A stretch of DNA of 54,011 nucleotides from Planctomycetota bacterium (GTDB lineage Bacteria > Planctomycetota > Phycisphaerae > Phycisphaerales > SM1A02), in NCBI GenBank assembly GCA_022563315.1, contig JADFNO010000005.1, forward strand, positions 1 to 54,011. Direction: 5' to 3'. Made by a program: the position numbers and the translations under genes. Shown in pieces: positions 27,946-50,826 of this stretch; position 1 is the stretch's first letter, and each line of letters begins with the position of its first letter. A model generated the notes under the pieces. That model was not told where the DNA came from, made no database searches, and saw only the letters and a list, made by a program, of their open reading frames with translations.

Positions 27946-28124
27946 GCCCACCGCAGAAGCATCTTGAGGCGCTCGGGCCGGTACGATTGGTCAGGTGGAG
28001 GGGAGAGAATCAGCCGGCGGCGGCAACGAAGCTGTGGCCGCTGGCGAGCGGTATTGACCCTAGCCGCAAGGTTGGGCCGATTGAAATCAACGGATGGCCA
28101 AGCTGTCGGGAGGACACGAACGTG

Positions 28125-32416: not shown

Positions 32417-33994
32417 ATGCCCGCACGGAACGTGATCGCGATCGACATCGGCCGACGCCGGCTTCGCGCGCTCTTGGCAGCGCGGGGTCGCAGCAAGTTG
32501 GTCGTCAAGCGCGTGCTCGTTGAACCGGTCCCCGAGAGTCTGGACACTCAGGACGCGCAAGCCGTGGGCGCTTGGGTCGGGCAATGCCTGCGCGAGGCCG
32601 GATTTCCCAAGGCAAAGGCTACGATTGCGATCTCGCGCGAACGGGTCGGTCTGAAGCGAATCACGTTGCCGACCGTTGACGACGACGAACTGCCCCCGAT
32701 GACTCGGTTGGCGCTGGGGCGCGATCTTCCCTTTGACGCCGATACGGCTGTGATCGACTTCGTCACCTTGGAGCGCGACGAGACGAGCACGACGGTGCTG
32801 GCCGTGGCCATTCCTGGGACCGTCCTGGCGTTCGAGAAAGAGATTGCCGCGGCGGCGGGCCTGGGCATCGAGCGAATCTCGTTGCGCAGCATGGGGTCGG
32901 CGGCGCTGTTGGGCAGTCTCAACGCCCCGCCCGGTGACGGCGCGCTCGCGGTGGACATCACCGGTGAGGGCGTGGAGTTCACCGTGGTGCTGGATGGGAT
33001 GATTCGCTTCGCCCGCGCGGCGGACCTCCCCCCGCTTGGCGACGACACCGGCACCGCCAATGCGGTGGTGACCGAGACCAGGCGAACGTGGATGAGCTAT
33101 CGCATCGTCGAGGACTCCAACGACGTGCACAGCGCCGTCGTCATCGGCGACCGCGAGATCTGTCGCCACGCCGCAGGTCCCATCGGTGAGATGCTCAACG
33201 TTCGAACCGAGGTCCTTGCCGAGCATCCGCTCATCAAGCGCAATCAACAGGATATGGACGGCGTGTGGCCGTTGGCGGGATTGCTGCTCGAGCCTACACT
33301 CGGCGTCCAGTCGATCGACTTCACGAAGCCGCGCAAAGCGCCGGACCTCGCCGCCCGCAAACGCCAGCGCGTCCTTGCGGTGGCGGGGGTGCTGTTCATC
33401 GGGACCTTCGCGGCATGGACCATCGGCAGCACTCGGCTCCAGACCCTTGAACGCTTGGAGGCGACGCTCGCAGAACAGTGCCGAGATATGCTTCCCCAGC
33501 GGCAGCGATTCAAACGCGACGAGTTGAAGCTTCAGCACCTCAGGCTTTGGCAGGAGGCACACGTTGATTGGCTCGACCACCTCGTTCATCTCGGTGCGGT
33601 CGCGCCATCGTCCGATCAACTCGTGCTCGATTCCTGGACAGGAATGCTGGACTTTCGCGGCGTCACCTACGACCAAGGCAAGAAGACGAAGAAGCCGCGG
33701 TGGTACACACCGATGCCGATCAAGATTGTCCTCGATGGCGAGGCGAACAATCGGATGACCGCCGATGCCTTTCGTGACGCGCTGGTGCGAGGCAAGCTGT
33801 ACATACTCAACTCGGCCGGGCCGGACACCGCCGGCGGCCGACGCCTGCCGTACAAGTTCAACTATCGGCTCGCCGGCGCTGCCAACACCCCGCCGATCAA
33901 GAAGAACCCGCCCCGTTCCAACCAAGCCTCGGCCACGCCCGCGCCGGTGGGTGAGGTTGTTGCGCACAACGTAGATGGAGGGCAGGATTCGTGA
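32417..33994 (+). CDS. PilM/GspL-like cytoplasmic-membrane protein with PilN-like domain
   Basis: A 525-residue protein. Residues 1-310 form an actin-like PilM/GspL domain (starting NVIAIDIGRRRLRALLA, then LGRDLPFDADTAVIDFVTLE and GDGALAVDITGEGVEFTVV). Then come a single membrane helix (RVLAVAGVLFIGTFAAWTIG) and a periplasmic PilN-like coiled coil (QTLERLEATLAEQCRDMLPQ). It is in effect PilM and PilN in one chain, the same architecture as GspL, which ties the ATPase to the periplasmic machinery. The ATG at 32417 has AAGGA at normal spacing. It overlaps the next gene as GTGA. Confidence 0.78.
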   Translation: MPARNVIAIDIGRRRLRALLAARGRSKLVVKRVLVEPVPESLDTQDAQAVGAWVGQCLREAGFPKAKATIAISRERVGLKRITLPTVDDDELPPMTRLALGRDLPFDADTAVIDFVTLERDETSTTVLAVAIPGTVLAFEKEIAAAAGLGIERISLRSMGSAALLGSLNAPPGDGALAVDITGEGVEFTVVLDGMIRFARAADLPPLGDDTGTANAVVTETRRTWMSYRIVEDSNDVHSAVVIGDREICRHAAGPIGEMLNVRTEVLAEHPLIKRNQQDMDGVWPLAGLLLEPTLGVQSIDFTKPRKAPDLAARKRQRVLAVAGVLFIGTFAAWTIGSTRLQTLERLEATLAEQCRDMLPQRQRFKRDELKLQHLRLWQEAHVDWLDHLVHLGAVAPSSDQLVLDSWTGMLDFRGVTYDQGKKTKKPRWYTPMPIKIVLDGEANNRMTADAFRDALVRGKLYILNSAGPDTAGGRRLPYKFNYRLAGAANTPPIKKNPPRSNQASATPAPVGEVVAHNVDGGQDS

Positions 33995-34935
33995 ACGGCT
34001 GGCGCCGCATCGTTCTGTTCGTTGGCGTGCTCGCCCTCCTGGGCGGGCTGGGCTACTTCGCTGCACAGAACCTCTATTTCCAAGACAAAGCGCTTCTCGT
34101 GAAAAAGATCGACAGCTACCGCAATTATCTCAAGGGCGCCAAGGCGGAGAGCCGCCGTCGTCGAGAACTCGACGCAGACTTCCAGGAGATCGTGAACCGC
34201 ACGCTCGGGGCTGATCTAGAAACCGTCGATCACCAGCTTCGCACCCGGCTCAACCGCATCGGCGAGGAACTGGGGATTTCCGGCCTCAGCGTCGGGACCG
34301 GACAGGCCCGTAAGCTTCAGTCCCCTGCTCGCAGCGAGTTCGGACGCCGAACGAATCGGGCGCTTCGAGATGAGATCGATTTCGTCGAGCTGGAAGGTTG
34401 GATCTCCGGCGAGGCGACCTTCGAGGCCGCACTTCGCCTGGTTCACCGCATCGACGCTGAGCCCTGGCTGAAGCATCTGGATCAGGTTCGCCTGCAGCCC
34501 AAAGACAACGGGGACCGCTTTGGGGTTATGGTTCGGCTGACGACACTGTTCCTGCCCAAACAAGTGCCGAGCGAGCCGATGCTGGCCGCCTATGACGCAA
34601 GCGCCTTTGACCCATATTTAGCCCTGACCCGCAGCAACCTCTTTCGTGTGCCGCCCCAGGGGGAAACTTCCGGGCCGCCGACACCCGCCGCCGTGGTCGC
34701 CACCGCACAGGACCAATGGACGCTGACCGGCGTGGCCTCGGGGCCTGATGGTCGTGAGGTTTGGCTGCTCAATCTACAAACAGGTGAATCCCGAAGGCTC
34801 GCTGTCGGTGAAACCTTGCGGGACCTGGTGCTCGTGGGGGCCGTCGGTGAGACGGCTGAGTTTCGCCGCGACCAGCAGCGATTCACGGTTTCGGTCGGGC
34901 AGCGGTTGAGCCAACGATCCCCCATCCAGCCCTGA
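33991..34935 (+). CDS. GspM/PilO-like protein
   Basis: A 314-residue bitopic membrane protein. A short cytoplasmic N terminus is followed by one membrane helix (RIVLFVGVLALLGGLGYFAA), a coiled coil (KKIDSYRNYLKGAKAESRRRRELDADFQEI), and then two ferredoxin-like halves (about residues 75-190 and 210-314). That order is that of PilO/GspM. The C-terminal half (WTLTGVASGPDGREVWLLNL) resembles the PilP/GspC homology region, so it may stand in for the missing GspC. That last point is a suggestion. Start GTG 33991 overlaps the previous stop. Confidence 0.68.
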   Translation: MNGWRRIVLFVGVLALLGGLGYFAAQNLYFQDKALLVKKIDSYRNYLKGAKAESRRRRELDADFQEIVNRTLGADLETVDHQLRTRLNRIGEELGISGLSVGTGQARKLQSPARSEFGRRTNRALRDEIDFVELEGWISGEATFEAALRLVHRIDAEPWLKHLDQVRLQPKDNGDRFGVMVRLTTLFLPKQVPSEPMLAAYDASAFDPYLALTRSNLFRVPPQGETSGPPTPAAVVATAQDQWTLTGVASGPDGREVWLLNLQTGESRRLAVGETLRDLVLVGAVGETAEFRRDQQRFTVSVGQRLSQRSPIQP

Positions 34936-34984: not shown

Positions 34985-37900
34985 ATGCGGCCAATGACCC
35001 TGCGTGTAACTGCCGTGCCGATGTTCACAAGTCTGATCCTGACATTTTCCGTGGCGAGCACTGTCCACGCCTGGCAGAACGATCCCAGCTCTGCCGACGA
35101 GGTCCCGCCACCGGCTGTACAAGCCCAGGATGCGACCAATTCGGCCCCCAACACGGCCGCCGACGAGCCGGCGTTGATCCGCTTCAATTTCAAGGGCGCG
35201 ACGCTCGATCAGGTGATCGATTTCTTCTCGCGCGCATCCGGGCTGCCGGTGATCAAGGAGACCGACGTTCCCGATCGTCGTCTGGACTACTTGGATCCCA
35301 AAGGCTACACGGTTCCCGAGGCTTTGGAAGTGCTCAACACGATTCTCCAGGCGAACGGCGTGATGCTGCGTGTCTCCGAGAACATGCTGTACCTCCAGAA
35401 GTTGACCGAGATGCAGCGCGAGGCATTGCCCCTGTTTGTTGGACAAGTGCCGCAAGACGTTGCCCCCAACGAGATCATCACCGTTGTTTTCCCGCTGAAC
35501 ATCGCGATGGCCAAGCCGCTGGCCGAGAAGCTCGCCATGATGGTCGCAGAATACGGCTCGGTGGCCGCGATGGAGCAGCAGAACTCGCTGGTGATCACCG
35601 AGACTGCGGCCCAGGTTCGCCGACTTCTCCTGATCGTTCAAGAGCTCGATCGCGAAAACCCGGAAGACACCGTCGAGATCTTCCCCATCAAGCACGCCAA
35701 GGCCAAGGATCTGATGGAGCCGCTCAAGGCCCTCATGAGCAAACGCATCGAGAGGTACGTCACCGATCCGAAAGGGAAACAGGTCAAGACGACCGAGGAG
35801 AGCATGCCCGGGCTCAGCATCTCCTTCGACGAGCGCACCAACACGATCATTGCCAAAGGCGTTCGGGCCCGGATCGAGAAGTTGCGCGAGACGATCGCGC
35901 TGCTTGATGTACCGGCGATCGGCCCCGGAAGCGGCCGAACCGTCCGAACCTTCCAGCTTGTGCAACTTGCCCCGAGTCAGGTGGTCACCCGACTCAACCA
36001 ACTGTACGCAACGCTGCCGGAGGAGCAGCGACCGGCCATCATCCCCCTTGATGAAGTTGGCAAGATCACCATCGTCGGCACCGATGCGGCGATGGCCGAA
36101 GCCGAAGCCCTGCTCAGCGAGATCGACGGCGGTATTACCCGAACACCGCAACCCCAGCGCAGTATCGCCGCCATACCTCTGCAATACGCTGATCCGAACG
36201 CATTAGCCGACGCGGTTCGCAGTTTGCTCAACGGCCGACAGGCCATCGCCACCAAGCTCGTCCCGGGGCCCGACGGCCGAACGCTTATCGTCTCCGGCCT
36301 CGTTGAAGATGTCGCCGCTGTCAAAGCGCTGCTGACCGTGCTGGACACGCAGGTCAAAATTGATCGCCAAGTGCGCTTGTCGCGACTGACCACACCTGAG
36401 CCGGCCGTGACGCTCCGACGCGCGCGCGAGCTCTATGACGAGCAGGTCGATACCAACGAACCTCGCTGGCAATTGGACGTTCGGCTCGATAACGAATCTC
36501 GTGTTCTCACCGCGATCGGATCATCTCAAGCGCTCGATCGCTTCAATGACGTCCTCCAGATGGTCCAATCGAACACCGTCGTCGACCGCCAAACCCGTCA
36601 ATTCGTCATCGCCAATACCACGCCCAGCCGGATGGTCGCGCCGTTGACGTCACTTGTTCGCCAATTGCTTGAGCCTCATGACGGCATGGAGTTTGTTGCG
36701 CCGACCATCGAGCCGATCGATCAACTCGATACCCTGGTTGTAACAGCGCTACCCACGCAGTTTGAAACGATCGAGTCGTTGATCAAGACGCTCGATGAGC
36801 CAAGCCCCGATGATTTCCAGTTCCGCGTGTTTGCGGTCGCCGGCTTGGATCCGCACCAGTTGATGCAGAAGACGGACTTTGTCTATCAACGCCGCATCGA
36901 GGGGCTTGATCCACAGGAGATGCCCCCGCCGAACGTCGAGTTTGATTCGTTGACCGGCAACCTGCTTGTCTCAGGCAAAAGCGCATCGGTGCGCACCTAC
37001 GAGCAATCACTCACCGAAGCGCGGCGACTGCTTCCGCCGGTCCGAACCGGTCGGCTTATGCCGCTTCGGAACGCCAAGGCATCGGAAGTGCTCGGCCTGC
37101 TCAACGAACTTATTGCTACGACCTCGCCGATTGATCCATCTCGCACTGTGCCGGCCCCGACGATTGAAGTCATCGAGCATACCAACAGTCTCTACGTCAT
37201 TGCAGAACCGTCGCAACACCAAATGATCGATCAACTTCTGCAACAGCTCGACACGCCCGACCGATTTGATCGCCAAGTTCGTCTTCTGAGATTGACCGCA
37301 CGAACGCCGGACGAACTACTCGTCCGCACACGTGCGCTGTACGAAGAGCAAGTTGACGTGGACGAGCCGGAGTGGGAACTCACCACGCGGTTCGACTCAC
37401 AGACGCGCGAGCTGACGCTCATCGGATCGTCTGCCGCGATGGATCGCTTCTCCAATGTCATGCGAATGATCGAATCCAACGCCGTCGTCGATCGTGAGAC
37501 ACGGCAGTACGACATTCTCAATGCCACCCCCAGCCGAATCGTCTCTCCGCTTTCGTCACTCGCCAAGCAAATGCTCCAGCCGCGCGACGGCACAGAATTC
37601 ATCGCACCGACGCTGGAGCCGATCGATCAACTCGATCTGTTGATCGTTACGGCTCTGCCTGAGCAGTTTGCCACGATTGACTCGCTGATCTCCACACTCG
37701 ATGAACGGAGTCCCGATGATTATCAATTCCGTGTCATTGCCCTGAGCGGTTCCGATCCGCAGCAGTTGATGCTAAAGGCGGATTACATCTATCAGCGGCG
37801 AATCGAGGGACTTGACCCTCAAGAAATGCCCGCGCCGACGGTCGAGTTTGATTCGTTGACTGGAAATCTACTTGTGTCAGGCAATAGCGCGTCAGTGCGC

Positions 37901-40900
37901 ACATACGAACAATCGCTTGGCGAGGCTCGACGACTCCTTCCCCCAGCCCGGACCGGTCGGCTCATTGAGCTGCGCAACGCCAAGGCGTCGGAGGTGATCG
38001 GCCCGCTCGAAGAACTCATCGCTTCGACCGCACCGGTTGATCCGTCGCGAACTATCCCCGCACCTACCATCGAGCTGATCGAGCGGACCAATAGCCTTTA
38101 TGTCGTGGCTGAAGCTGCGCAGCTTCAAATGGTTGAGCGGTATGTCAAGCAGCTCGACACGTTCGAGCAGACGGTACTGCCGCCGCTTCGACTCATTCAA
38201 GTGCGGGCTGCGGATGCGGCGCAACTAGCCGGGATGTTGCGCAAGCGTTACGACGCGCGACCAGCTGAGCAACGGCGCGAGATACCTGTGACCATCGACG
38301 CCGATGCCGCGACCAACACCCTGATCGTCACCACACACACCGAGATCTTCGACGAGATCAAAGAGTTCGTCGATGGCGTAAACCGCTCCGGAGACGCCCA
38401 GGCTGAACGCGAAACGATGATCTTCCCGCTGAAACTCGCGCGAGCGGTGGATCTAGCCAAGGCGATGGACAAGCTGTATCCACAACCGCCGATGCCGTTG
38501 GATCGGCGTGGTCGTCCCTTGCCGCATCTGCAAGAACCCAAAGAAGTGCATGTCAGCGCCGAGCCCGCGACCAACACGTTGATCATCGAAGCACCGGCGG
38601 AGCGACGCGCTCAGTTTGAAGCGCTCGTTGAGCAGTTGGATCGTGTCGAGTTGCCCCCGACCGCGGAGCTTCGCACCTATCACATCGAACGCGGCGATCC
38701 GACGCAGATCGCGCGCACCCTCTCCGATCTGGCTCGCCAAGGTGTGATGAGCGCGCAGCCGACCGACGGCTCCAAGGCCGTGCAGGTTATCATCCAGGCC
38801 GAACCCATCAGCAAGACGCTGATCGTCGCCGGCGATGAAGTCACCTTCGCCAAGACCGAGCAAATGTTGAAGGATCTCCAGGCCGTTCCCGTGCAGCGAT
38901 CACTGCGCGTGATCGAAGTCACAGGAGCCGATCCACAGGAACTGGCCGATCGCGCGCTGCGGCTCTACAAAGAGCAAACCGCCGACATCCCCGATGCGAC
39001 CGGAGTCAGCGTCGAGGTTGATCACGATAACGCTTCGTTACTCGTCGTGGCGGAGGATGAGGCGATCTTCCGCTTCACCGCGATCCTTAACCAACTCCAA
39101 CAAAGCATCGGCCCGCCGCCGGAGGTCCGTTTGATCGCGCTGGAGTATGTGGATGCCACCGAGGTCGTCGAGTTTGTCACCGGTTTAGCGGAGAGTGAGC
39201 TTTCGACGATAGGCGGTCGGCGTGGTCCGCCTCCGGTGCTGTATGCCATCGAGCGCACCAATTCCGTTTTGATCGCCGCCCGCCGTGAACAACACGAGAT
39301 TATTCGCGCACTTATTCGGAGTCTCGATCAACCGCAAACGCAGGACATGCCGCCGCTGCGCATTCTCCAGCTTCGCAATGCTGATGCTGTGAATCTGGCA
39401 ACAGCGTTGATGCGTCAATACAACCAACGGCCGGTCGAGGAAAAGCAAGCCAAGCCCGTCAACATCGCGGCTGATCCACAGACCAACACGCTCATCATTG
39501 CCGCGCACCCGGAGATGTTGCCGCAGATTCAGGCCATTGTCGAGGAGCTGAACCGCGCTGACCGCATGGATACCGAAGGGCGAGAGATTCGTATCTTCCC
39601 ACTCAAGATCGCTCGTGCTCAAGAGCTGGCCAAAACGATCGACGAGATGTATCCGCAGCCGCCGATGCCGCGCGATTCACGCGGGCGACCTCGCCCCGAT
39701 CTTCAGCTTCCGCGTGAAGTCGTCGTTCGCGCGGATGTGCAGACCAACTCGCTTATCGTTGATGCATCAAGTCAGCGCATGGCCGGGTTCGAGAAGCTCG
39801 TCGAGCAACTGGATCGGCAAAAGATCGTCGAGGACACGGAGATCAGGACCTACCAGGTGATCTATGCCGACCTCAATGGATTGGCCAAGACGCTGCGTGA
39901 TCTGGCCGCGACGACCCAATTGGGTTCAGCGGCGCGCGATCGTCGTGTGCCGATCAACATTACCACCGAGCCGGTCTCCAAGACGCTGGTCGTGTCCGGC
40001 CCAACCGACATCTTCGAGACGGTCGAGAAGTTGCTTCGTGATCTTGACGTGCACCGGGCCGGTCCGGCAACGTCACTTCGCTTCTTCAAGCTCCAGAGCG
40101 CTCGGGCGGAAACACTTGCGCCAATGCTGCGGGAGATCCTCGTCGCACGAATGCGCGAAGACGTGCCCGAAGCCGGCAACGACATCGCATCATTGCTCAA
40201 CGTCAGTGCGGATCGAAAGACCAACACGCTGATCATCTCAGCCCCGGAGGCGATCATGCCCGTGGCGGAGGAGACGATTCGCCAGCTCGACAGCGGAACC
40301 GCTTCCATCGGCGATCCGATCGTGCGCATCAAGCCGCTCACGTTCGCCGATGCACGCGAGGTGAGTCAGGCGCTTTCCCAGGCGATCCGCAGCCTCATCA
40401 GTAAGGCGACGGGCGAACCGATCGATGCCAAGATCCTGACTTCGCCCGGCGCGAATGCGTTGATTCTCGTCGGTTTGGAGGCCGATCTGGAAGAAATCGA
40501 GAAACTGATCGAGCCGCTTGATGCCCGCCCGGCGATGGACGCCATCGACGCGCGCACGTTCAAGCTCACCTACGCCGACGCCGCCACGATCGCACCGGTT
40601 GTCGATCGCCTGTTGACCGATCAGCAAGAGACCGATCCGCGCATCATCATGGAGCGCATTCGCAGGAGTCGTGGCCAGATCGATCTCACGCCGAAGGTTC
40701 GGGTGGAAGTCGATCAACGAACCAACAGTTTGATCGTGTCCGGCCCGCAGCAGACGGTTGCCCTCGCCGAAACCCTCATTGCCCAGCTCGATCAACCGGA
40801 TGAGATGTCGCAGCGCACGATTCGCACCTTCACGCCCACAAACGCCGATCCCATCGCCTTATCGCAAACCGTACAGCGCGTTGTTGAGTCGGGCAAGCCC

Positions 40901-43900
40901 AGCGGTCGGCGAACCACGCTGCAACTGATTACCGATCCACAAAGCGGTGCAGTTGTTGTGGCAGGAACCGAGGAGGAAGTCCAGGAGGCTCTTGCACTGC
41001 TTGAGGAATGGGATGGTCATGCGCTCAGACCTCCGCAAATGGATTTGCAAGTCATCACGCTTAAGCATAGCGATGCGGCGGTTGTCGCCCAAGTGGTGAA
41101 CCCGATGCTGCGCGATCAATCGCGGTGGCCAAGCGATCTGAAGGCGATCGCCCGCGCGCGGATTCCCGTAGGTCAGCCGACCGTTTCAGCCGACCGTTCG
41201 ATGAATCGCTTACTCATTAGCGCACCCAGTCAACTCATGCCGATCGCTCGGCAACTCATAGCTCAACTCGATCAACCGAGGCCGGGCGAATCAGCGGTTG
41301 ATGTTCGAATCTTCAATCTCACGCAAGCGCAAGCGACGGACGTCGCCGCTGCGCTGCGTAGCGCCATGGAGGCCAAGGCGCGCAACGTGCCCGGCTCCCT
41401 TGCCGCCACGATCACTGCCGAGGCATCCAGCAATTCGGTGCTCGTCACCGCTACGCCCGCGCAATTGATCGAAATCGAATCGATCATCCGGTCGCTGGAT
41501 TCAGGGACGGCGCTCGATCAGGTGCAGGTACGGACCGTTTTCTTGCAGTATGCGCGGGCCGAGTCTGTCGCACCGGTCGTTGAGCAACTTCTTGCTCCTA
41601 AGAGTGAAGTGAACGTCAACCTGCTGCCGACGTGGCTTCGCGCTCAGATTATTCAAGCCGAGATGCGGGATGGTGGTGAGCCGCAGGTGCGCGTCGCGGC
41701 CGATGTCAGACTCAATGCGGTGGTGATCTCAGGTCCGCCGGCGTTGCTTGATGTCGCCGAGCAGATGGTCGCGCAGCTTGACGTCGATCCAACAGCGCTT
41801 GACGGCGCCGTCACAAGATCAGTGCGCGTGCTCACGGTTGACAATGCCGACGCGACCGAATTGGCCATGAATCTGCGGGCGATCTTCGACGAGCAGGACC
41901 AGATCGATCCGCCGCCGACGATCCGCGTTGATACCGCGAGCAACAGTTTGCTGGTACGGGCCACGGACGAGCAGTTCGCAACGATCGAGCAAATTGCAAT
42001 GCAGATCGATCAGGCGACGATTGCGACCTCGCGCCAAATGCAGATGATCACGATCGACCCGAGCAAGGCGAGCGCGGCTGAAGTAGCGCGAACGCTTCAG
42101 CGCATGCTCGGTCGCCGGGGCGGGAGCAAAGTGCAGGTCATTACCCTGCAGCAGCTTCTGGAACGTCGCCGATCGAAGGGGGGGGAACCAGACCCGCCGG
42201 GCCCTAGTTCAGCGCTGCCGATGCCCGTTTGGCCGGCCATCGCAGCGCAGATTTTCGCTGTCCAAGATGATGCCGCCGCCAAAGAACTTGCCAACGTCGT
42301 GCCGGACGCGATCGCTGAGCTGAGCGATGTAACGATCGCCGTTGATCCGGAAACGAACAGCCTGATCATCATCGGTTCGCCGCGGGCTATTGAACGCATC
42401 ACGCAGCTTGTGCGGCAACTGGAGTCGCAGTTGCCCGCCGCCCCCAGCGAGATTCGCTACGTCGGTCTGCCGCAGGTCGTGGACGCACCAGCCGTGGCGA
42501 GCCTTATCAATCAGACGTTGCAACGGATGACCCCTGTCGGCGGGCAGCGCGGCGATCTGCGCCGACGTGTCTCAGTCATTGCGGACGCGACGAACAATGC
42601 GCTCATCGTCGCGTGTAGCGACATCGACTTCGAAGTGGTCGGCGATCTCATTGCAGCCCTTTCGCAATCTGTTGCGGTCGACGAGATCGTCGTCAAGATC
42701 TACCCGCTGCGGACAATCACTGCGGAGCGCGCGGCCGAGAGCGTGCGTCAAATGATCGCCCCCGATGCCCCGAGTCGCCGCCGCGGTCGACAGGCCCAGC
42801 GCATGCGCGATCTTGCGCTGACGCTAATGGTCGATGGCCAAACGATCGAAGCGGTGTTCGATCCGAATCGCGTTCGTGTTTCCGCCGACGCGCACACAAA
42901 CTCACTGATTGTCATCGGTCCGTCCGAGGCGATCACGTTCGTCGATCAGTTCATTGAGCTTCTCGATCAGACGCCGATCAACGTGCAGACCACGCTGAAG
43001 CTGTATCCGCTTCAACATGCACGTGGAAAGGATATCGAGCAGGTATTTCGCCGCATCTTCCGGACGAGATTCCAGAGCATGCGAGGCCAGCTTGGTCCGG
43101 CTGCGATTCAGCCGGAGTTCTCCGTCGATCAGCGCACCAACACGTTGCTTGTCACCGCTGCGCCGGAACAACTGGCCGAAATCGACGCGCTGCTTGAGCA
43201 GCTTGATCGTAAACAAGGGGGCGATCGGCATCCCTTGCGGCTCATTGAACTCAAGGCGGCGCAACCTCAACAGGCGGCGGAAATTCTAGAGAAAGTTGTG
43301 ATCGGTTCGGACCAGAATCGCCGCGCAGAAACCATGATTGTCCATGACAACGCGACCGGCCTCCTGCTGGTGCGCGCCGCAGATGATGTCATGGCCGAGA
43401 TCGACGAGCTGCTCAAGGAGATCGACCGCCCACCCACCACGCAGTATAAGGTGCGCACGATCGTGCTGGAGCGCGCCGATGCGTCAGCGGTCGCGACTGC
43501 GTTGCAGCGATTGTACGATGATCGCGCCAAGATCGCTTCATCCGGGAGAGGTCGTCGAGAGCAGTCGCGGCGCGTCTCGATCATCGGCGACCGCAACAGC
43601 AACACGATTCTGGTTGCTGCGAACGACGACGATTATGATGAGATCAAACATCTCGTTTCACAGTTCGATTCGCCACAGGCGGCGCAAGCGCTTGAGTTCC
43701 GTGTCTTTGAGCTGAAGCACGCCAAAGCCGAAGAGATCGAGAGCACGGTTCAGCAACTCGTCAACGATCTGACGTACAACCAGCAGCCGTTCTTTTTCTT
43801 CTTCGGCAGCCGGTTCGGCGGATCGCAAGACCAAGCGAACCGCGACTCCGTAGCCGTGCGCGCCGACCAACGCCTCAACGCGCTCATCGTCACAGGCAAG

Positions 43901-46900
43901 GGCGACAAGTTTGCGCTGGTCGAGAGCCTGATCGAAGTGCTCGATGCGCCGCCACCTGAAGGCGAGCAGCGTGTCGTCAGGCTCTATCAACTCAAGCATG
44001 CTGATCTTCAAGTCGTCGCCGACGTCGTTCGCGAGTTGTTTACTGACACGAATCGCGCTCAACGCTGGTGGCAGCCATCCGATCCGCACGAACTGAAGGT
44101 CCGCACGGACGAGGGCAGCAAGACCCTCATCGTCTCCGGCTCGGTCAAGGAACATGCGGACGTCGCCGAGCTGATCGCCAGTATCGACGCTCAGGTCGCC
44201 CCGGCAGATCAGCAAATGCAAGTGCTGCCCGTCGAGTTCGCCCGCGCTGTCGAGCTGGCGCGGACGTTCACTCGGTTTCTGGCCGACCGGGCTGAGGCAA
44301 CCAACGCCGCCCCGCCCACCGCGACGATCACCGCGAGCGACTCTGCCAACTCATTGATCGTCTCGGCCAATGCGGACGACTTGGTCTTGCTCAAGGATCT
44401 GCTGGCGCGGCTGGATCAGCCGGACGTCTCGGGCGACCGGATCATCGAGATCATCGCGCTCAAAGACGGCGATGCGGAGGAATTGGCTCGCATAATCAGC
44501 CAGCAATTCGAGCGGCGCGGCGGTCAAGGCGTTCGCGTCACCCCCGATGTGCGCACCAACAGCCTCATCATCAACGCCCCGAAGATTCAGTTTGCTCAAG
44601 CTCAGGCGCTGATTGCCGAACTCGATCAGCCCAAGTTCAGCGATGAGACCATCATTCGAACTTACTCACTGGAAGGCGCGCGCGCCGAGGAGGTCGTCCG
44701 AATCCTCTCCGATGCCTTGGGACTCGATGCGCGCGGCGAGACGCACGGCAAGACAATCAAACTGGACGACGATTCTCCGGCGGTCGAAGTGAATGCGAAG
44801 ATCGTCGCTGACGAACGATCCAATAGTCTCGTCGTAACCGCCACCGCTGAATCGTTCCCCGTGATCGAGTCGCTGATCAACGAACTTGACAACGTTGAGC
44901 CCAAGAGCCCGTTTGAATATCGCATTGTCCCATTGGCGCATGCGCTCGCAATCGATGTTTGGTTCACGCTTAACGAATTCACCCGCCAACGAGGCAGCGA
45001 TCGACGTGAGGAAGCGCGCATTGACTACAACGTCGTCGAGAACCGCATCATCGTGGCCGCGACGCCCGACCAGATGGAGCAGATCCTTCAGATCATCGAG
45101 CAGCTCGACCAGCCGACCGGGCCCGATCGAATCAGAGAGTTCGTGCCGTTGCAATTCGCCGAGGCCGAGAAAATCCAGGAAGCGTTATCGTTTTTCTACG
45201 GACGGCTTGCGCCTGGTGCCGAAACTCCATCGGAGCGAGATGTACAGATTGTCGCCGATCCCGCGTCGAACAGTCTGGTGATTTCCGCGAGCGAGCAAGA
45301 GTGGGTGAACATTCGCGCTCTGCTGGAGAAGCTGGATAACGAGGAGTACGACGCGTCGCTGCAACTGCGCGTTATTCCCCTGATGTACGCCGATGCGACA
45401 TCAGTCGCTCGTGCGATCAACGGTGCGTTCCAAGGTCAAATCGAGCGCGGCCGGCGAGGTCAGCAATCCACACGACGCGAAGCGCGGCGCGGTGGCGGTG
45501 ATGAGCAGCGCCGTGATGAACCGGCTCCCACACTGCTGGTCGAGGCGGAAGTATGGGTTCGCGCTGCCGCCGAGCCGCAGACCAACTCCGTCATCATCTC
45601 CGCCAGCCGACAGAACATCCGCAAGATCGAACAGATCATCGAGCAGTTGGATGTCGCCGACTACGCCAAGCTGCCGCCGCCCCAGATCATTCCCGTGACC
45701 TCCGGCGACCCCATGAAGCTCGCTGAGTCGCTGAACCGACTCTATGACCAGGCGACGGGCTCACGCGGACGAAGAGCGCTCCGCATCGTCGGCGATTCAA
45801 CCTCCAACACGATCATCGTGCGGGCTGAAGAAGATGAGTTCGCCCAGATCAGGACGCTGGCCGCTGCTCTCCAACAAGAGGCGTCCAATCAAGGTCTCTC
45901 GATCCACGTGCTGCGACTGACGGCTGCGCCGGCCGCCCGTGTCGCCGCCGCCATCACCGAAGCGTTCCAGGCCAAGGCGTCCCAGGCAAATCAACCGCTG
46001 GCCATCCAAGTCGATGCGCCTGGCAATAGCCTCGTGATCGCCTGCACCGCGGCCCTGTTTGCTGAAATCGAGCAAACAGTCAATCAGCTCGATGCGCTGA
46101 CGCCGCCCGCAGGGCATGGCATCTTCATCATCGAACTGCAAAACATCTCGCCGGACGCGGCAACTCAGATCATCGAGACCATCGGCCTGGACAAGCCCCA
46201 GCCGGACGACTCGGTCTCGCGTCTCGTGACCGAACCGATCAAGGTTGCCACGCTTCAAGGGCGCAACGCCATCATCATCATCGCCAACCCGATCGATCGC
46301 GACACGATCGTTGGACTCCTCAAGGCGATCGACAGCGATCCGCAGCATGCTCAGTCTGAAATGCGTGTTCTCAAACTGCGCAACGCCGAGGCCGAAGCGC
46401 TCGCGAATATTCTTCGCCAGATACTGTCACCGGCAGATCAACAAACGAACACTCCTTTAGCGCAAGCGATTCAAGAGCAGGTGCGCCGGCTTTCCATTCG
46501 ACGTAACGGCCCGGATGCCGGCGGAATCCAACTCGATCTCACCAAACCCATCCGCATCATTGCCGACACCTCGCTCAACGCGCTCGTGATCAGTTCCACG
46601 CCGCAGAATGTCTACGCGCTGACGGAGATCGCCAAGATGTTCGATCAGCTGCCCATCACCGACGCGGTGACGGTGCAGTTGTTCCCGTTGCAGAACATCG
46701 CCGCCGAGCAGTTCGCCCGCATTATCGGTGAGTTATTTGACCAGGGTAAGCAGCTTGGCCGCATACCCGGCACCAATCTGGAAGGCTTGCCCGAAGGCGC
46801 CGTCGGGCCCGCTCTGCTCGATGAGATCGCTATCAGCGTGGACGAACGAACCAACACGGTTATCGTGGCCGGCAAGGAAGAGACGGTGGCGCTGGTGGAA

Positions 46901-49900
46901 GTTCTCGTGCGACGCATCGATGCCGATGTGGCCGCCGGTTGGATTGAACCACGCATCCTCGTGTTGCGTTACGCCGATGCCAACGACTTGGCTGAAACCC
47001 TCCAAGCGATTCTCATTGAAGGCATCGGCAATCTGCCGCAGTCCACGCCGCTGCAACGGCAGATCGGGCGCTTGCGCATGGCCCGTCTTGAAGAAAACGG
47101 CGGACGAGTGATCGAGTCGGACATTTTCGTCCCCATGACTCACCTGGTGATCCGCCCGGAAACGCAGCTCAACGCGCTGATCCTCGTCGGCACGCCCATG
47201 AACCTTGAAGTGGTCACCGAGCTGGTGGCCATGCTCGACATCGAAGCCGCCGCGCCGGGGGCAGCCGTGCGCATTTATCCCATCGAGCATGCCTCAGCGA
47301 GTCGGTTGGCCACGACCATGGTGCGCCTGTTCGATCAACAGATCCAAGCTGACATTATTCGTGAAGAGGATCGTGTCGTCGCCCAAGCGGACGAGCGCAC
47401 CAACACGCTCATCGTCACCACCAGCCCGCGAAGCTTCATCGTCCTGGAGCGCCTGCTCCAAACGCTCGATGCCGAGATCGCCCCGCAGTTCAGCGAGATT
47501 CGGCGAATCAAACTGAAGAACGCATCGGCGTCGCGTTTGGCTTCCATCGTCGGTGAACTGATGGATGCGAGACTCGAGCGGCTTCGCAAGATCGAGCCGG
47601 AGACGGCTGACCTCCAACAGGCAACGATCATCGACGATCCCCGCACCAACAGTCTGATCATCGCCGCCGGTCAGGAATCCTACGAGGTGATCGAGCGTCT
47701 CGTCGCCGATCTGGACGCGTCGGATCTGGGGGAGATCGGCCTGCTGGACGTGCTGACACTGACCACCGCCAACATCGAACGAATCGCCGAGACAATCAAC
47801 GACATCATGGAGCGGCGTTACGCTGACATGCCCGCCGAGATCAAGCGCAGCCAGCAGCCGCTGGTGATGACTGATCCCCGCACCAACAGTCTGCTGGTGG
47901 CGGCGAACGTCGAGGACATGGCCGCAATCCGGCAGCTTGTGGCGAAGCTCGAAGCGGTGCCGATGAATCCGGCCGTCGGCCTGCACGTCCTTCCCTTAGA
48001 GGGCACGCGGGCCGAGTTGTTGGCTCCCCGCCTCGAACAGTTGATGCGCGAACGCCAGCAGTCGCTCGGCGAAGCCGCTACGTCCATGGACCGCGTATCG
48101 ATCGAGCCCGACACCGCCAGCAATAGTCTTATCATCGCCGCCAGTGAGGAGAACCTTCAAGTCATCCGCGATCTGATCGACGCCTTGATCGGTGCTGAGG
48201 CGGATGCGGTCGGCGGTTCGACATTCGAGATCCTGCAACTCGCGAGCAGCCGCGCTGTTGATGTCGTGGACATGCTCCAGGATATGTACGTTGAGGAAGT
48301 GAACCGTACGCGCGGCCCAAACACCATCCGCGTCACGGCCGACGAGCGCCTCAATGCGGTGCTCGTCAATGCGCCGCCCGCAGATGTCCGCACGATCAGA
48401 AGGCTTGTGGCCCAGCTCGATGGCGCTCGGCCAGGGTCGGTCGTCGAGATAAAGTACATCCCGTTGAGTTCCGCAAATGCTCTTGAGACCGTCAGTCTCA
48501 TTGAGAACATTCTCAGTGGGCGAGGCATCGGCGCTCGACGTCGATCTCAACAGGCGACGGTGCTCAAATATCTCCGCGAGGTCGCCACCGACCAGATCGA
48601 CGACGAGACCGGCGAGCCGATGACCGAGATGGAGGTCAGCGCCGCCATCCGCGAATCGATCACGCTGACGCCCGATCTGCGCACCAACACCGTGATCATC
48701 TCCGCGCCGAAGGAGTCGATGGGCATGATCGAGCAGATGATCCGCGATATGGATGCCTCGTCCACCGGTTCGCAGAACGTTCGCATTTTCAAGTTGGTCA
48801 ACGCCGACGCCGTTGCCATGGCCCAGATTCTGACCGACTTATTCAATCTCAGCAATCGCGGGAACCTGTACGTCCTCAAGCCGCGCGAGTACCCGCCGGG
48901 AGAAGGCGAGCCCGCCCGATTGCCGGGCCCCGATGGCGAGCGCATCTACGCCGGGCTTGAGAATACCGAGCTGACCGCGGTGCCCGATGACCGCCAGCAG
49001 CTTTCCATCACCGTTGATACGCGGACCAACAGTCTGCTTGTGTCCGGCACGCCGCAGTATCTCGACCTTGTGGGGGCAGTGGTCGCAGAGCTCGACGCAC
49101 TCGAGGCCAACGAGCGCGAGGTCTTCGTCTATCAACTTCGGAACGCCGTAGCCGGTGAAGTCGCACGAGTCCTCTCGCAGTTCATCGAGACGGAGCAAGA
49201 CAAACTCATCGCGACGATCGGCATCGACCAACTCGGCTCCGCCGCCCGCCTGTTGGAGCGCCAAGTTACGATTGTCGGCGACGATCAATCCAACACGGTG
49301 CTCGTCAGCGCCAGCCCACGCTATATGCAGCGCGTCAAAGAGATGATCAGTGAACTGGATGTGGATCCGCCGCAGGTGCTCATTCAAGTGCTGCTCGCTG
49401 AGGTTACGCTCGACGACACCGACGAGTGGGGGTTCGATTTTTCCGCCAATCGCACCCAAGGCGATGTCAACATCAGCGGCGGATTCAGCTTGGCCAGCGC
49501 CTTCGTTACCGGCATGGGCGTGCCGAACCTCTCGATCTCCGGCACGGATTTCAACCTGTTGCTCCGCGCACTTCAATCCCAGGGCCGATTGCAAGTGCTC
49601 AGCAATCCCTCAATCATGGCCGCGAACAACCAGCCCGCCCGTATTCAGATTGGCGAAACCATCCGCCTGCCCGAGAGCACATCCTTTAATCTGGGAAGTC
49701 AGCAGTCTTCGGTCGTGCCGGAAGACATCGGGATCATCCTTGAAGTTACACCCTCCATCAATCCCGACGGATACGTCCGCATGACCATCACGCCGGAGAT
49801 CTCCGAGCTGAGCGCACGCACCACGCAGATCTCGGAGGATTTCTCATCCCCCATCATCACGCGTCGCACCGCCACCACGACCGTCACCGTCCGCGACGGC

Positions 49901-50245
49901 CAAATGATTATCTTGGGGGGCCTGATCTCCAATCGATTTGAGCGCCGCGACCGGAAGGTCCCGCTGCTTGGCGACATCCCATTCTTCGGCGCGCTGTTTC
50001 GTAGCTCCACGGAGACCAGCAAAAAGACCGAGCTACTCATCGTCCTCACCCCCCACGTCATCATGAGTCCCACCGAAATCGATCGCGTGGACCAGATCAC
50101 CCGCGACGAGATCGATCGCCTCTCGCTTCCCGACGAGATCAAGCAGCAGATCCGAAAGAACATTCTGGACGGGACCGGTGGGCTGTACGACGCCGAAGGC
50201 AAACGAATCGACACACCCAATGCGTCTGAAAAGGACAAGGAGTAA
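34985..50245 (+). CDS. Giant secretin (GspD-type), 5,086 residues, about 56 N domains
   Basis: An outer-membrane secretin channel of a type II secretion/type IV pilus-like system. The order is: signal peptide (residues 1-29, ending TVHA), Pro/Ala linker, N0 domain (about 62-139, FNFKGATLDQVIDFFSRASG), then an unbroken array from 157 to 4793 of about 56 N1-type secretin_N domains. Each has roughly 70-85 residues, typically an (R)xxxLxxADA helix, a TNSLIV strand and a closing xxLIxxLD helix. One pore domain follows at 4795-5028 (VLIQVLLAEV, RLQVLSNPSIMAANNQPA, MIILGGLISN, VPLLGDIPFFGALFR, ELLIVLTPHV), then a 55-residue tail. Several N domains carry long loops (residues 2350-2486, 3457-3563, 4597-4710). 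Ordinary secretins have one to a few N domains. The frame is intact for 15.26 kb. Start ATG 34985; ATG 34994 is also possible. Confidence 0.95.
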   Translation: MRPMTLRVTAVPMFTSLILTFSVASTVHAWQNDPSSADEVPPPAVQAQDATNSAPNTAADEPALIRFNFKGATLDQVIDFFSRASGLPVIKETDVPDRRLDYLDPKGYTVPEALEVLNTILQANGVMLRVSENMLYLQKLTEMQREALPLFVGQVPQDVAPNEIITVVFPLNIAMAKPLAEKLAMMVAEYGSVAAMEQQNSLVITETAAQVRRLLLIVQELDRENPEDTVEIFPIKHAKAKDLMEPLKALMSKRIERYVTDPKGKQVKTTEESMPGLSISFDERTNTIIAKGVRARIEKLRETIALLDVPAIGPGSGRTVRTFQLVQLAPSQVVTRLNQLYATLPEEQRPAIIPLDEVGKITIVGTDAAMAEAEALLSEIDGGITRTPQPQRSIAAIPLQYADPNALADAVRSLLNGRQAIATKLVPGPDGRTLIVSGLVEDVAAVKALLTVLDTQVKIDRQVRLSRLTTPEPAVTLRRARELYDEQVDTNEPRWQLDVRLDNESRVLTAIGSSQALDRFNDVLQMVQSNTVVDRQTRQFVIANTTPSRMVAPLTSLVRQLLEPHDGMEFVAPTIEPIDQLDTLVVTALPTQFETIESLIKTLDEPSPDDFQFRVFAVAGLDPHQLMQKTDFVYQRRIEGLDPQEMPPPNVEFDSLTGNLLVSGKSASVRTYEQSLTEARRLLPPVRTGRLMPLRNAKASEVLGLLNELIATTSPIDPSRTVPAPTIEVIEHTNSLYVIAEPSQHQMIDQLLQQLDTPDRFDRQVRLLRLTARTPDELLVRTRALYEEQVDVDEPEWELTTRFDSQTRELTLIGSSAAMDRFSNVMRMIESNAVVDRETRQYDILNATPSRIVSPLSSLAKQMLQPRDGTEFIAPTLEPIDQLDLLIVTALPEQFATIDSLISTLDERSPDDYQFRVIALSGSDPQQLMLKADYIYQRRIEGLDPQEMPAPTVEFDSLTGNLLVSGNSASVRTYEQSLGEARRLLPPARTGRLIELRNAKASEVIGPLEELIASTAPVDPSRTIPAPTIELIERTNSLYVVAEAAQLQMVERYVKQLDTFEQTVLPPLRLIQVRAADAAQLAGMLRKRYDARPAEQRREIPVTIDADAATNTLIVTTHTEIFDEIKEFVDGVNRSGDAQAERETMIFPLKLARAVDLAKAMDKLYPQPPMPLDRRGRPLPHLQEPKEVHVSAEPATNTLIIEAPAERRAQFEALVEQLDRVELPPTAELRTYHIERGDPTQIARTLSDLARQGVMSAQPTDGSKAVQVIIQAEPISKTLIVAGDEVTFAKTEQMLKDLQAVPVQRSLRVIEVTGADPQELADRALRLYKEQTADIPDATGVSVEVDHDNASLLVVAEDEAIFRFTAILNQLQQSIGPPPEVRLIALEYVDATEVVEFVTGLAESELSTIGGRRGPPPVLYAIERTNSVLIAARREQHEIIRALIRSLDQPQTQDMPPLRILQLRNADAVNLATALMRQYNQRPVEEKQAKPVNIAADPQTNTLIIAAHPEMLPQIQAIVEELNRADRMDTEGREIRIFPLKIARAQELAKTIDEMYPQPPMPRDSRGRPRPDLQLPREVVVRADVQTNSLIVDASSQRMAGFEKLVEQLDRQKIVEDTEIRTYQVIYADLNGLAKTLRDLAATTQLGSAARDRRVPINITTEPVSKTLVVSGPTDIFETVEKLLRDLDVHRAGPATSLRFFKLQSARAETLAPMLREILVARMREDVPEAGNDIASLLNVSADRKTNTLIISAPEAIMPVAEETIRQLDSGTASIGDPIVRIKPLTFADAREVSQALSQAIRSLISKATGEPIDAKILTSPGANALILVGLEADLEEIEKLIEPLDARPAMDAIDARTFKLTYADAATIAPVVDRLLTDQQETDPRIIMERIRRSRGQIDLTPKVRVEVDQRTNSLIVSGPQQTVALAETLIAQLDQPDEMSQRTIRTFTPTNADPIALSQTVQRVVESGKPSGRRTTLQLITDPQSGAVVVAGTEEEVQEALALLEEWDGHALRPPQMDLQVITLKHSDAAVVAQVVNPMLRDQSRWPSDLKAIARARIPVGQPTVSADRSMNRLLISAPSQLMPIARQLIAQLDQPRPGESAVDVRIFNLTQAQATDVAAALRSAMEAKARNVPGSLAATITAEASSNSVLVTATPAQLIEIESIIRSLDSGTALDQVQVRTVFLQYARAESVAPVVEQLLAPKSEVNVNLLPTWLRAQIIQAEMRDGGEPQVRVAADVRLNAVVISGPPALLDVAEQMVAQLDVDPTALDGAVTRSVRVLTVDNADATELAMNLRAIFDEQDQIDPPPTIRVDTASNSLLVRATDEQFATIEQIAMQIDQATIATSRQMQMITIDPSKASAAEVARTLQRMLGRRGGSKVQVITLQQLLERRRSKGGEPDPPGPSSALPMPVWPAIAAQIFAVQDDAAAKELANVVPDAIAELSDVTIAVDPETNSLIIIGSPRAIERITQLVRQLESQLPAAPSEIRYVGLPQVVDAPAVASLINQTLQRMTPVGGQRGDLRRRVSVIADATNNALIVACSDIDFEVVGDLIAALSQSVAVDEIVVKIYPLRTITAERAAESVRQMIAPDAPSRRRGRQAQRMRDLALTLMVDGQTIEAVFDPNRVRVSADAHTNSLIVIGPSEAITFVDQFIELLDQTPINVQTTLKLYPLQHARGKDIEQVFRRIFRTRFQSMRGQLGPAAIQPEFSVDQRTNTLLVTAAPEQLAEIDALLEQLDRKQGGDRHPLRLIELKAAQPQQAAEILEKVVIGSDQNRRAETMIVHDNATGLLLVRAADDVMAEIDELLKEIDRPPTTQYKVRTIVLERADASAVATALQRLYDDRAKIASSGRGRREQSRRVSIIGDRNSNTILVAANDDDYDEIKHLVSQFDSPQAAQALEFRVFELKHAKAEEIESTVQQLVNDLTYNQQPFFFFFGSRFGGSQDQANRDSVAVRADQRLNALIVTGKGDKFALVESLIEVLDAPPPEGEQRVVRLYQLKHADLQVVADVVRELFTDTNRAQRWWQPSDPHELKVRTDEGSKTLIVSGSVKEHADVAELIASIDAQVAPADQQMQVLPVEFARAVELARTFTRFLADRAEATNAAPPTATITASDSANSLIVSANADDLVLLKDLLARLDQPDVSGDRIIEIIALKDGDAEELARIISQQFERRGGQGVRVTPDVRTNSLIINAPKIQFAQAQALIAELDQPKFSDETIIRTYSLEGARAEEVVRILSDALGLDARGETHGKTIKLDDDSPAVEVNAKIVADERSNSLVVTATAESFPVIESLINELDNVEPKSPFEYRIVPLAHALAIDVWFTLNEFTRQRGSDRREEARIDYNVVENRIIVAATPDQMEQILQIIEQLDQPTGPDRIREFVPLQFAEAEKIQEALSFFYGRLAPGAETPSERDVQIVADPASNSLVISASEQEWVNIRALLEKLDNEEYDASLQLRVIPLMYADATSVARAINGAFQGQIERGRRGQQSTRREARRGGGDEQRRDEPAPTLLVEAEVWVRAAAEPQTNSVIISASRQNIRKIEQIIEQLDVADYAKLPPPQIIPVTSGDPMKLAESLNRLYDQATGSRGRRALRIVGDSTSNTIIVRAEEDEFAQIRTLAAALQQEASNQGLSIHVLRLTAAPAARVAAAITEAFQAKASQANQPLAIQVDAPGNSLVIACTAALFAEIEQTVNQLDALTPPAGHGIFIIELQNISPDAATQIIETIGLDKPQPDDSVSRLVTEPIKVATLQGRNAIIIIANPIDRDTIVGLLKAIDSDPQHAQSEMRVLKLRNAEAEALANILRQILSPADQQTNTPLAQAIQEQVRRLSIRRNGPDAGGIQLDLTKPIRIIADTSLNALVISSTPQNVYALTEIAKMFDQLPITDAVTVQLFPLQNIAAEQFARIIGELFDQGKQLGRIPGTNLEGLPEGAVGPALLDEIAISVDERTNTVIVAGKEETVALVEVLVRRIDADVAAGWIEPRILVLRYADANDLAETLQAILIEGIGNLPQSTPLQRQIGRLRMARLEENGGRVIESDIFVPMTHLVIRPETQLNALILVGTPMNLEVVTELVAMLDIEAAAPGAAVRIYPIEHASASRLATTMVRLFDQQIQADIIREEDRVVAQADERTNTLIVTTSPRSFIVLERLLQTLDAEIAPQFSEIRRIKLKNASASRLASIVGELMDARLERLRKIEPETADLQQATIIDDPRTNSLIIAAGQESYEVIERLVADLDASDLGEIGLLDVLTLTTANIERIAETINDIMERRYADMPAEIKRSQQPLVMTDPRTNSLLVAANVEDMAAIRQLVAKLEAVPMNPAVGLHVLPLEGTRAELLAPRLEQLMRERQQSLGEAATSMDRVSIEPDTASNSLIIAASEENLQVIRDLIDALIGAEADAVGGSTFEILQLASSRAVDVVDMLQDMYVEEVNRTRGPNTIRVTADERLNAVLVNAPPADVRTIRRLVAQLDGARPGSVVEIKYIPLSSANALETVSLIENILSGRGIGARRRSQQATVLKYLREVATDQIDDETGEPMTEMEVSAAIRESITLTPDLRTNTVIISAPKESMGMIEQMIRDMDASSTGSQNVRIFKLVNADAVAMAQILTDLFNLSNRGNLYVLKPREYPPGEGEPARLPGPDGERIYAGLENTELTAVPDDRQQLSITVDTRTNSLLVSGTPQYLDLVGAVVAELDALEANEREVFVYQLRNAVAGEVARVLSQFIETEQDKLIATIGIDQLGSAARLLERQVTIVGDDQSNTVLVSASPRYMQRVKEMISELDVDPPQVLIQVLLAEVTLDDTDEWGFDFSANRTQGDVNISGGFSLASAFVTGMGVPNLSISGTDFNLLLRALQSQGRLQVLSNPSIMAANNQPARIQIGETIRLPESTSFNLGSQQSSVVPEDIGIILEVTPSINPDGYVRMTITPEISELSARTTQISEDFSSPIITRRTATTTVTVRDGQMIILGGLISNRFERRDRKVPLLGDIPFFGALFRSSTETSKKTELLIVLTPHVIMSPTEIDRVDQITRDEIDRLSLPDEIKQQIRKNILDGTGGLYDAEGKRIDTPNASEKDKE
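36362..37267 (+). repeat. Four-domain module of the giant secretin, copy 1
   Basis: Residues 460-761, 302 residues, four N domains. The next 303 residues repeat the same order of four domain types. Diagnostic pairs: RARELYDEQVD versus TRALYEEQVD, RIEGLDPQEMPPPNVEFDSL versus RIEGLDPQEMPAPTVEFDSL, and IDPSRTVPAPTIE versus VDPSRTIPAPTIE. Confidence 0.85.
37268..38176 (+). repeat. Four-domain module of the giant secretin, copy 2
   Basis: Residues 762-1064, in direct tandem with copy 1 at an offset of 906 bp. The two copies are plainly homologous in protein but diverged in DNA, so the duplication is old and not an assembly artefact. Confidence 0.85.
38177..38896 (+). repeat. Three-domain module of the giant secretin, copy 1
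   Basis: Residues 1065-1304, exactly 240 residues. It shares PPLRLIQVR, YPQPPMPLDRRGRPLPHLQ and PISKTLIVAG with the copy beginning 1,170 bp later. Confidence 0.8.
39347..40066 (+). repeat. Three-domain module of the giant secretin, copy 2
   Basis: Residues 1455-1694, also exactly 240 residues, with PPLRILQLR, YPQPPMPRDSRGRPRPDLQ and PVSKTLVVSG. About 150 residues (two N domains of another subtype) lie between the copies. Confidence 0.8.
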
Positions 50246-50253
50246 CAACTATC

Positions 50254-50826
50254 GTGCAGCAACGCTCGCGCATCCATTTTCGATCGAGACTGTTCCTGCC
50301 GGCAGCAGTCGCAATGTTTATCCTCGGTTGTCGAACGACGCACGTCGAATACGGCAGCGTCCGACCCTTGCCGCCCGATCCCAAGCCTGCCAAACCCGTT
50401 CCAAGCGGCGCCAAGGCCAACGCCATGGCCCTGGCGGTCGAAGGCAAGCCCGCCGACACCGACGGGAACGGCTATCCGGACACGATCGTCGTTTCCATGT
50501 ACCTGTTCTCGCTGCCGCATGCCGCGCCCATGTTCGAGGATGGAACGTTTGTTTTCACACTGCAAGGTAACGGCGACGCGGATGCCGACGACGCTCATTC
50601 CCTCGGACAATGGCGACTCGACGCTAACCAAGTCGAGCGTGGCCGAACCATTTACGGCCCAACCCACCTGGCTCGACTCAGTCTGCTGGACATCGGCAGT
50701 GATCGGTACCCGCTCATGAGCGCCAATCTCCACTGCCGATTCGAGCCGGCGGACGGTCGCGATCCCATCTCGCCCCGTGGTGTGCATTGGGTGCAACTGG
50801 GCCGGTTCCAAGCCGCCCGGCGGTGA
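50254..50826 (+). CDS. Lipoprotein downstream of the giant secretin
   Basis: A 190-residue predicted lipoprotein. Basic start QQRSRIHFRSRLFLP, hydrophobic stretch and lipobox FILGC at residues 22-26, then a Pro-rich linker and a beta-rich domain with DTDGNGYPDT, an acidic loop that could bind Ca2+. Start is GTG 50254, with AAGGAG about 11 bp upstream and only 8 bp after the secretin stop, so it belongs to the same operon. By position it may be a pilotin or an outer-membrane partner for the secretin tail, but it has no sequence likeness to known pilotins that I can see. Confidence 0.65.
   Translation: MQQRSRIHFRSRLFLPAAVAMFILGCRTTHVEYGSVRPLPPDPKPAKPVPSGAKANAMALAVEGKPADTDGNGYPDTIVVSMYLFSLPHAAPMFEDGTFVFTLQGNGDADADDAHSLGQWRLDANQVERGRTIYGPTHLARLSLLDIGSDRYPLMSANLHCRFEPADGRDPISPRGVHWVQLGRFQAARR

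Follow-up and report, generated by a model that had tools for sequence, protein, structure and literature searches.

The window, by which we mean the whole 54,011-nucleotide stretch of DNA that was analysed, contains at positions 34985-50245 of the forward strand one open frame of 5,086 codons with an ATG start and no internal stops. Its predicted product, which we refer to as the giant GspD, is a protein of 5,086 aa (~559 kDa, pI 4.8). The gene is preceded on the same strand by a series of type II secretion genes. These begin with gspF, encoding the inner-membrane platform (26587-27945; PF00482, E 1.5e-55, and TIGR02120), and gspG, encoding the major pseudopilin (27942-28646; PF08334, and TIGR01710 above its cut-off). 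The minor pseudopilin genes follow: gspH-like (28653-29462) and gspJ-like (29971-30795), each with profile matches, gspI-like (29459-29974), with a weak profile match, and gspK-like (30792-32339; PF03934 and PF12836), whose product carries helix-hairpin-helix motifs. The series is completed by a pilM/gspL-like gene for a cytoplasmic and inner-membrane protein (32417-33994; PF11104 and TIGR01175) and by a gspM/PilN-like gene (33991-34935), whose product has a linker rich in Pro and, at its C-terminus, a GspC/GspB-like (HR-like) domain. We presume that this last protein is the partner of N0, with the caution that its HR-like domain was read by eye and has weak profile support: orthologues of the protein gave only weak matches to the PilN, T2SSM and T2SSB profiles, and a profile search of the domain against solved structures returned nothing significant.

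Directly after the giant gene, starting 8 nt 3' of it, is a gene for a small lipoprotein with an ILGC lipobox (50254-50826, forward strand). It had no match in Pfam or NCBIfam, its position is kept in three families of giant loci (f1, f2 and f4), and it is possibly a pilotin or accessory protein. The order gspF-G-H-I-J-K-pilM-gspM/C-gspD is found again at giant loci in other families, and split and short forms of gspD have most of it around them as well. The source genome encodes three more secretins, in frames of 884, 887 and 926 aa, and nine full-length or nearly full-length ATPases of the T2SSE/PilB/PilT type, these ATPases all being on other contigs and none in the giant operon. Elsewhere in the window, two cpn60 chaperonin genes lie close together (9066-10823 and 12092-13705), followed by dnaJ.

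Within the giant protein, residues 1-29 (34985-35071) form a likely signal peptide, with a basic start, a hydrophobic core and a V-H-A cleavage site, identified by eye without a signal-peptide program. An N0 domain follows at about residues 64-157 (35174-35455), where the match to TIGR02517 places model position 1 at residue 67. The array proper extends over residues 166-4795 (35480-49369), beginning with N1 (residues 166-225; 35480-35659), the counterpart of the N1 domain of ordinary GspD and, of the 56 position profiles, the one that best matches the first N domain of short relatives, and ending with N56, the pore-proximal, N3-like domain (49121-49369), assigned by the iterated model and the position profiles. 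Between these lies a four-domain block duplication, N5-N8 (36371-37261) and N9-N12 (37277-38167), whose members are 54-80% identical domain by domain. The boundary of N44 and N45 (46103-46120) is near the place at which the homologous array of family f19 is split into two genes. A single pore domain closes the protein (PF00263, E 1.9e-50; 49568-50062).

To count the domains we relied on two approaches. Pfam searches of the protein in five artificial slices gave 6, 11, 10, 12 and 9 individually significant stretches of PF03958 (Secretin_N), or 48, with some domains missed at slice edges or as divergent copies. A hidden Markov model iterated on the giant protein itself identified exactly 56 contiguous domains, all with E < 1e-9. 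The linkers between them are 4-12 aa long (median 6), and domain lengths reach 129 aa owing to inserts in a few domains. Because 5,086 codons remain open and 56 domains are recognisable in them, chance is excluded as an explanation of the frame.

AlphaFold models of two segments agree with these assignments. Residues 60-390 (N0-N3) were modelled with a mean pLDDT of 83 and matched the N0-N1-N2 regions of PulD and XcpQ in Foldseek; residues 1458-1772 (N18-N21) were modelled with a mean pLDDT of 81.5 and a pTM of 0.34, without fixed inter-domain orientation. Both models match N domains of PulD, XcpQ, ExeD and GspD in the PDB. We note that only monomer segments were covered and that pTM values of 0.34-0.59 are uninformative on stacking. 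As to family, the C-terminal (pore) slice scores 443.7 bits against the GspD equivalog TIGR02517, above the cut-off of 351.35, and 235 bits against the PilQ profile TIGR02515, below the cut-off of 284. The solved pores closest to it by sequence are GspD proteins (PDB relatives 5wln, 6hcg and 6i1y), and Pfam scans of the giant protein revealed no AMIN domain.

The initial annotation had read from the DNA a signal peptide, an N0 domain, about 56 consecutive N domains and a normal C-terminal pore, in the right place of an otherwise ordinary secretion operon. Profile searches bear this out: 56 domains by the iterated model, 48 Secretin_N stretches rather than a handful by Pfam, one pore, and an operon order from gspF to gspD supported by Pfam and TIGRFAM profiles, though weakly for gspI and gspM, while the modelled segments fold as known secretin N domains and only the signal peptide still rests on inspection. 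On the basis of the pore, the N0 domain and the operon position after gspF..gspM, we identify the giant as the GspD that serves this type II secretion system, and we are highly confident that it functions as such.

We then asked how the domains relate to one another and to those of other giants. Paralogous domains within the protein are on average 26% identical, whereas orthologous positions in most of the family are 52-77% identical, a pattern that rules out interchangeable, homogenising repeats. Three relatives (L050, L051 and L057) have 52 domains each, all of them reciprocal best matches with domains of the giant and nearly all in order. A fourth, L055 (G012), has 56 domains and aligns with the giant over the whole length with no gap as long as 15 aa, so that the four-domain duplication is common to both. 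Taken with the likeness of N5-N8 to N9-N12, the 52-domain relatives indicate that 56 is an ancestral 52 plus one four-domain duplication. As judged from these alignments, the 52 positions of the array are each conserved between genera.

Comparison of the giant with that of G066, a genome of the same genus, yielded pS of 0.139 and pN of 0.011, and all 51 covered domains had pN/pS below 0.38 (median 0.05). Against G012, with 75.8% identity over 5,065 aligned residues, all 56 domains had pN/pS below 0.36. By this measure every domain covered is under purifying selection, and this result, together with positional orthology, rules out a pseudogene or a neutral expansion of repeats. Arrays of distant families also keep domain order (z of 3-15 versus shuffled order), most clearly at positions 40-56 of the position-specific profiles; aligned pairs in these comparisons are monotonic by construction, and the weight of the result rests on the shuffles. 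A patch covering N39-N41 (44654-45346) differs between the giant and G066 with pS of 0.34-0.78, versus 0.14 overall, as if replaced by recombination.

The giant of the window is not a one-off. Giants were looked for within Planctomycetota only, and the relatives that have names are metagenome-assembled genomes with the label Planctomycetota, Phycisphaerae or Phycisphaerales. A single frame longer than 2,000 aa with a giant-type pore is present in 51 of the 198 class genomes sampled, at lengths of up to 6,169 aa. The giant genes that were extracted encode 20-62 N domains (30-56 even within one family), the largest being that of G274, with 62 domains in 6,165 aa. Genomes with giants include some that consist of a single contig (G009, G032, G160, G201, G237 and G269), and single-contig genomes carry 50-52 largely colinear domains. 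Outside the class, no frame longer than 1,430 aa was found among the matches listed for the phylum sample, and two Verrucomicrobia loci encode ordinary secretins of 856 and 895 aa. From this survey of predicted proteins, the giant secretin is a trait of the class Phycisphaerae, with 20-62 domains that are at times divided over two or three genes.

Several further observations arose from the survey. In family f1, most genomes in which a giant was detected measure 3.0-4.9 Mb and the others 1.9-2.8 Mb; the query missed diverged giants of genus g14, and kinship was not corrected for, so that we do not claim a link with genome size. One planctomycete secretin, L104 (G543), has 8 N domains in 1,295 aa, and frames like it, of 1,242-1,430 aa, are present in several closed genomes outside the class. 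Two giant genes, L062 (G165) and L054 (G066), are interrupted, each running on in an overlapping frame that brings no new signal peptide; these look like frameshifts, whether real or due to sequencing error, and are to be kept apart from the natural splits described below.

Short relatives point to the place at which the array grew. Among the 56 profiles, profile 1 is the one preferred by the first N domain of all 15 short relatives whose N-terminus is complete, by a margin of approximately 6-26 bits. The last N domain of most three-domain forms has profile 56 as its best match or among its top three, and the middle domains prefer middle profiles. Because N1 and the pore-proximal end match those of ordinary GspDs, N0-N1 and the pore-proximal end are taken to be ancestral, and the array was inserted between them. 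In a tree of pore sequences, one clade (97/98) unites giants and split forms with the long-branch planctomycete L104, and the short forms of the same class fall outside it. Independent origins of giants in distant families are not favoured, given this single pore clade (L104 included) and the shared order of the C-terminal domains.

In families f19 and f21 the array is divided among two or three neighbouring genes, whose products have signal peptides of their own (loci L110, L111, L112, L113, L114, L116, L117 and L118). The f19 locus specifies two proteins that both start with a signal peptide, as read by eye: an upstream protein of 2,601-3,066 aa without a pore, which has 23-25 N domains and usually a basic tail, and a downstream protein of 1,552-1,842 aa with 13-17 N domains and the pore. 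In f21 (G263), there are three proteins with 9, 13 and 14 domains. Most upstream chains at these loci have a C-terminal tail rich in Arg, such as RRGRRR. Forms of 1,500-1,850 aa in f17, f19 and f21 might be taken for shorter secretins or intermediates, a reading that we reject because the upstream genes hold the rest of the array. The pore tree has split forms sitting among unsplit giants and suggests that they arose by fission, although it is unrooted.

The position of the breaks is informative. When aligned with the window profiles, the first f19 protein reaches position ~44 and the pore protein covers ~45-56; with the order of the proteins swapped, the score falls to the shuffled level. The break falls within an N domain: in almost every pair, model positions 1 to ~30, with the first strand and helix, close the upstream chain, and model positions ~32/46 to 70 open the downstream one. 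Scored singly on a one-sequence scale, the half domains reach only modest values (E ~1e-6 to 5e-2), but these are consistent over pairs. Because the split is inside a domain and the order of the pieces is kept, end-to-end association is implied, and the simplest reading of these predicted chains is that two half domains meet and that the array segments stack end to end.

Together these observations lead us to propose that the protein is the GspD of a type II secretion system and that its periplasmic middle, made of N2/N3-type ring domains, has multiplied to give 56 N domains. Secretins are 12-19-mers in which the N domains form stacked rings (PMC5745081). Assembled via the pore, 12-15 chains of 559 kDa would make a complex of 6.7-8.4 MDa, in which each N domain would form a ring, as in GspD and PilQ, and the rings of N0 and the 56 N domains, about 57 in all, would lie on top of one another and enclose a channel. 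The N0-N1-N2 region of XcpQ is 80 angstroms high for three domains (PMC5646246), from which we derive about 27 angstroms per ring and, for ~57 rings, a tube of about 150 nm. The pore would sit in the outer membrane, N0 at the far end would engage the GspM/C-like inner-membrane protein, and pseudopilus and substrate would travel inside the tube, which would bridge, at least locally, an enlarged periplasm.

We consider it likely, although by no means certain, that the giant GspD builds a continuous tube of stacked rings; this is an inference, made without data on oligomers, rings or expression. The domain count and the short, constant linkers support it, as does the addition of length between two ends that are both predicted to face a membrane. 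By analogy, the PilQ of Thermus thermophilus offers a precedent for a long tube: its six stacked rings, 350 angstroms long and described as "exceptionally long", span most of a wide periplasm (PMC5745081). The fuller proposal, that a secretin tube of ~150 nm and 7-8 MDa bridges a greatly widened periplasm, and that in some lineages it is made of two or three separately exported chains joined via a split N domain, is plausible but falls somewhat short of what we would call probable.

What is known of the periplasm leaves room for this proposal and also constrains it. We take Poriferisphaera to belong to the Phycisphaerae. A cultured Poriferisphaera strain has cells 0.4-1.0 um in diameter and a polar flagellum, and thin sections with a labelled periplasm are all that we found for the class (PMC10945688). 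The periplasm of planctomycetes can be greatly enlarged and convoluted, as has been demonstrated for Planctomycetia (PMC5394234). The flagellar L-ring protein FlgH is encoded in 17 of 17 tested genomes that bear giants or split forms. Its presence implies ordinary membrane spacing at least at the flagellum, and a straight tube of 150 nm would therefore fit only where the periplasm is locally wide. Because domain number varies from 20 to 62, and from 30 to 56 in one family, no single fixed length is needed.

FlgH also bears on the alternative that we regard as unlikely yet the most serious, namely that the extra N domains build no stacked rings but are flexible beads on a string, filling the periplasm around a short channel of the ordinary type and serving, for example, as a tether or as a surface that binds polysaccharides or enzymes. 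Such an arrangement requires no wide periplasm, and FlgH attests to ordinary spacing in giant-bearing cells; variable domain number and the lack of fixed orientation in the N18-N21 model (pTM 0.34) are likewise compatible with it. Linkers as short and constant as these (median 6 aa) are not expected of beads, however, nor are domains conserved by position expected of interchangeable ones. Moreover, the far end still has N0 and N1, which make the contact with the inner membrane, the array being inserted between N1 and the pore, and arrays that are split inside a domain must reassemble in register.

It is also conceivable, although we think it improbable, that the rings do stack but that the tube is tilted, bent, lodged in membrane invaginations or flexibly jointed, and so does not span the periplasm radially. 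FlgH in the same genomes, the hinges between the rings of PilQ (PMC5745081), the inserts that lengthen a few domains to as much as 129 aa and the convoluted periplasm possible in planctomycetes (PMC5394234) all point this way. Nothing decisive stands against it, and it differs from the radial tube only in geometry.

We give very little weight to a polyprotein that is cut after export into an ordinary GspD and free N-domain fragments. Some families do encode the array as separate proteins, but linkers of 4-12 aa leave scant room for processing sites, the natural breaks are within a domain rather than between domains, and domain order is conserved end to end. An artefact, be it of assembly or of decaying duplications, might be suspected from the 298-contig assembly that holds the giant and from the apparent frameshifts in the G066 and G165 genes, but it is refuted by colinear giants in many genera, including single-contig genomes with 50-52 largely colinear domains, by purifying selection on all covered domains, and by an average likeness of only 26% between domains.

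If the ring-stack tube is real, it is by far the longest secretin channel known, and cells of Phycisphaerae in which the rings stack would span an unusually wide space between inner and outer membrane. At most about six N rings are present in the structures and papers that we found; the giants show that a tenfold extension of the periplasmic part is possible. The existence of a class-wide family with 20-62 position-conserved N domains makes a question of long standing, namely the width of the planctomycete periplasm and the way in which machines cross it, testable, and the arrays broken inside a domain constitute a natural test of N-ring stacking. We found no description of a giant secretin in the literature searched, which did not cover most subscription papers.

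The giant is best understood beside its known relatives. With GspD, PulD and XcpQ it shares the pore, signal peptide, N0, N1, N domains of the ring-building type and operon position; those proteins normally have three Secretin_N domains (N1-N3) in about 650 aa, whereas the giant has 56 in 5,086 aa. Short GspDs of the same class (685-837 aa with 3-4 N domains, such as L091-L099) have close pore sequences, an N1 that is the counterpart of the giant's, and a related operon with gspF, gspG and gspK, and with pilM in several; unlike the giant they have no array and form a separate clade in the pore tree, and some genomes carry both. The Planctomycetia secretins of 1,242-1,430 aa (class name inferred), exemplified by L104 with its 8 domains, are a case from the same phylum in which the N array is modestly longer than usual; their pore has a long branch and an unsure placement. 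Type IV pilus secretins provide the other comparison: a survey of 197 secretins of type IVa pili found mainly 0-3 AMIN domains, N0 and N3 (PMC7545093), and T. thermophilus PilQ (N0-N5, 757 aa) has the longest described N-ring stack that we found. PilQ belongs to a system for pili and DNA uptake and has six rings versus about 57; the giant has no AMIN domain, its profile scores favour GspD, and its operon has GspF/G/H/I/J/K rather than a pilMNOPQ setting. The initial annotation had put the excess of N domains at an order of magnitude, which holds against the six rings of PilQ (PMC5745081), and had suggested a new architecture of outer-membrane channel. Of that suggestion, inference gives good support to a very long tube, which has not been demonstrated; a new kind of secretin is not what we find, as pore, N0, N1 and operon are ordinary and the protein is a GspD variant. 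By the features tested, all of them read from sequence, the giant is a member of the GspD family, and what is new is the number of its domains.
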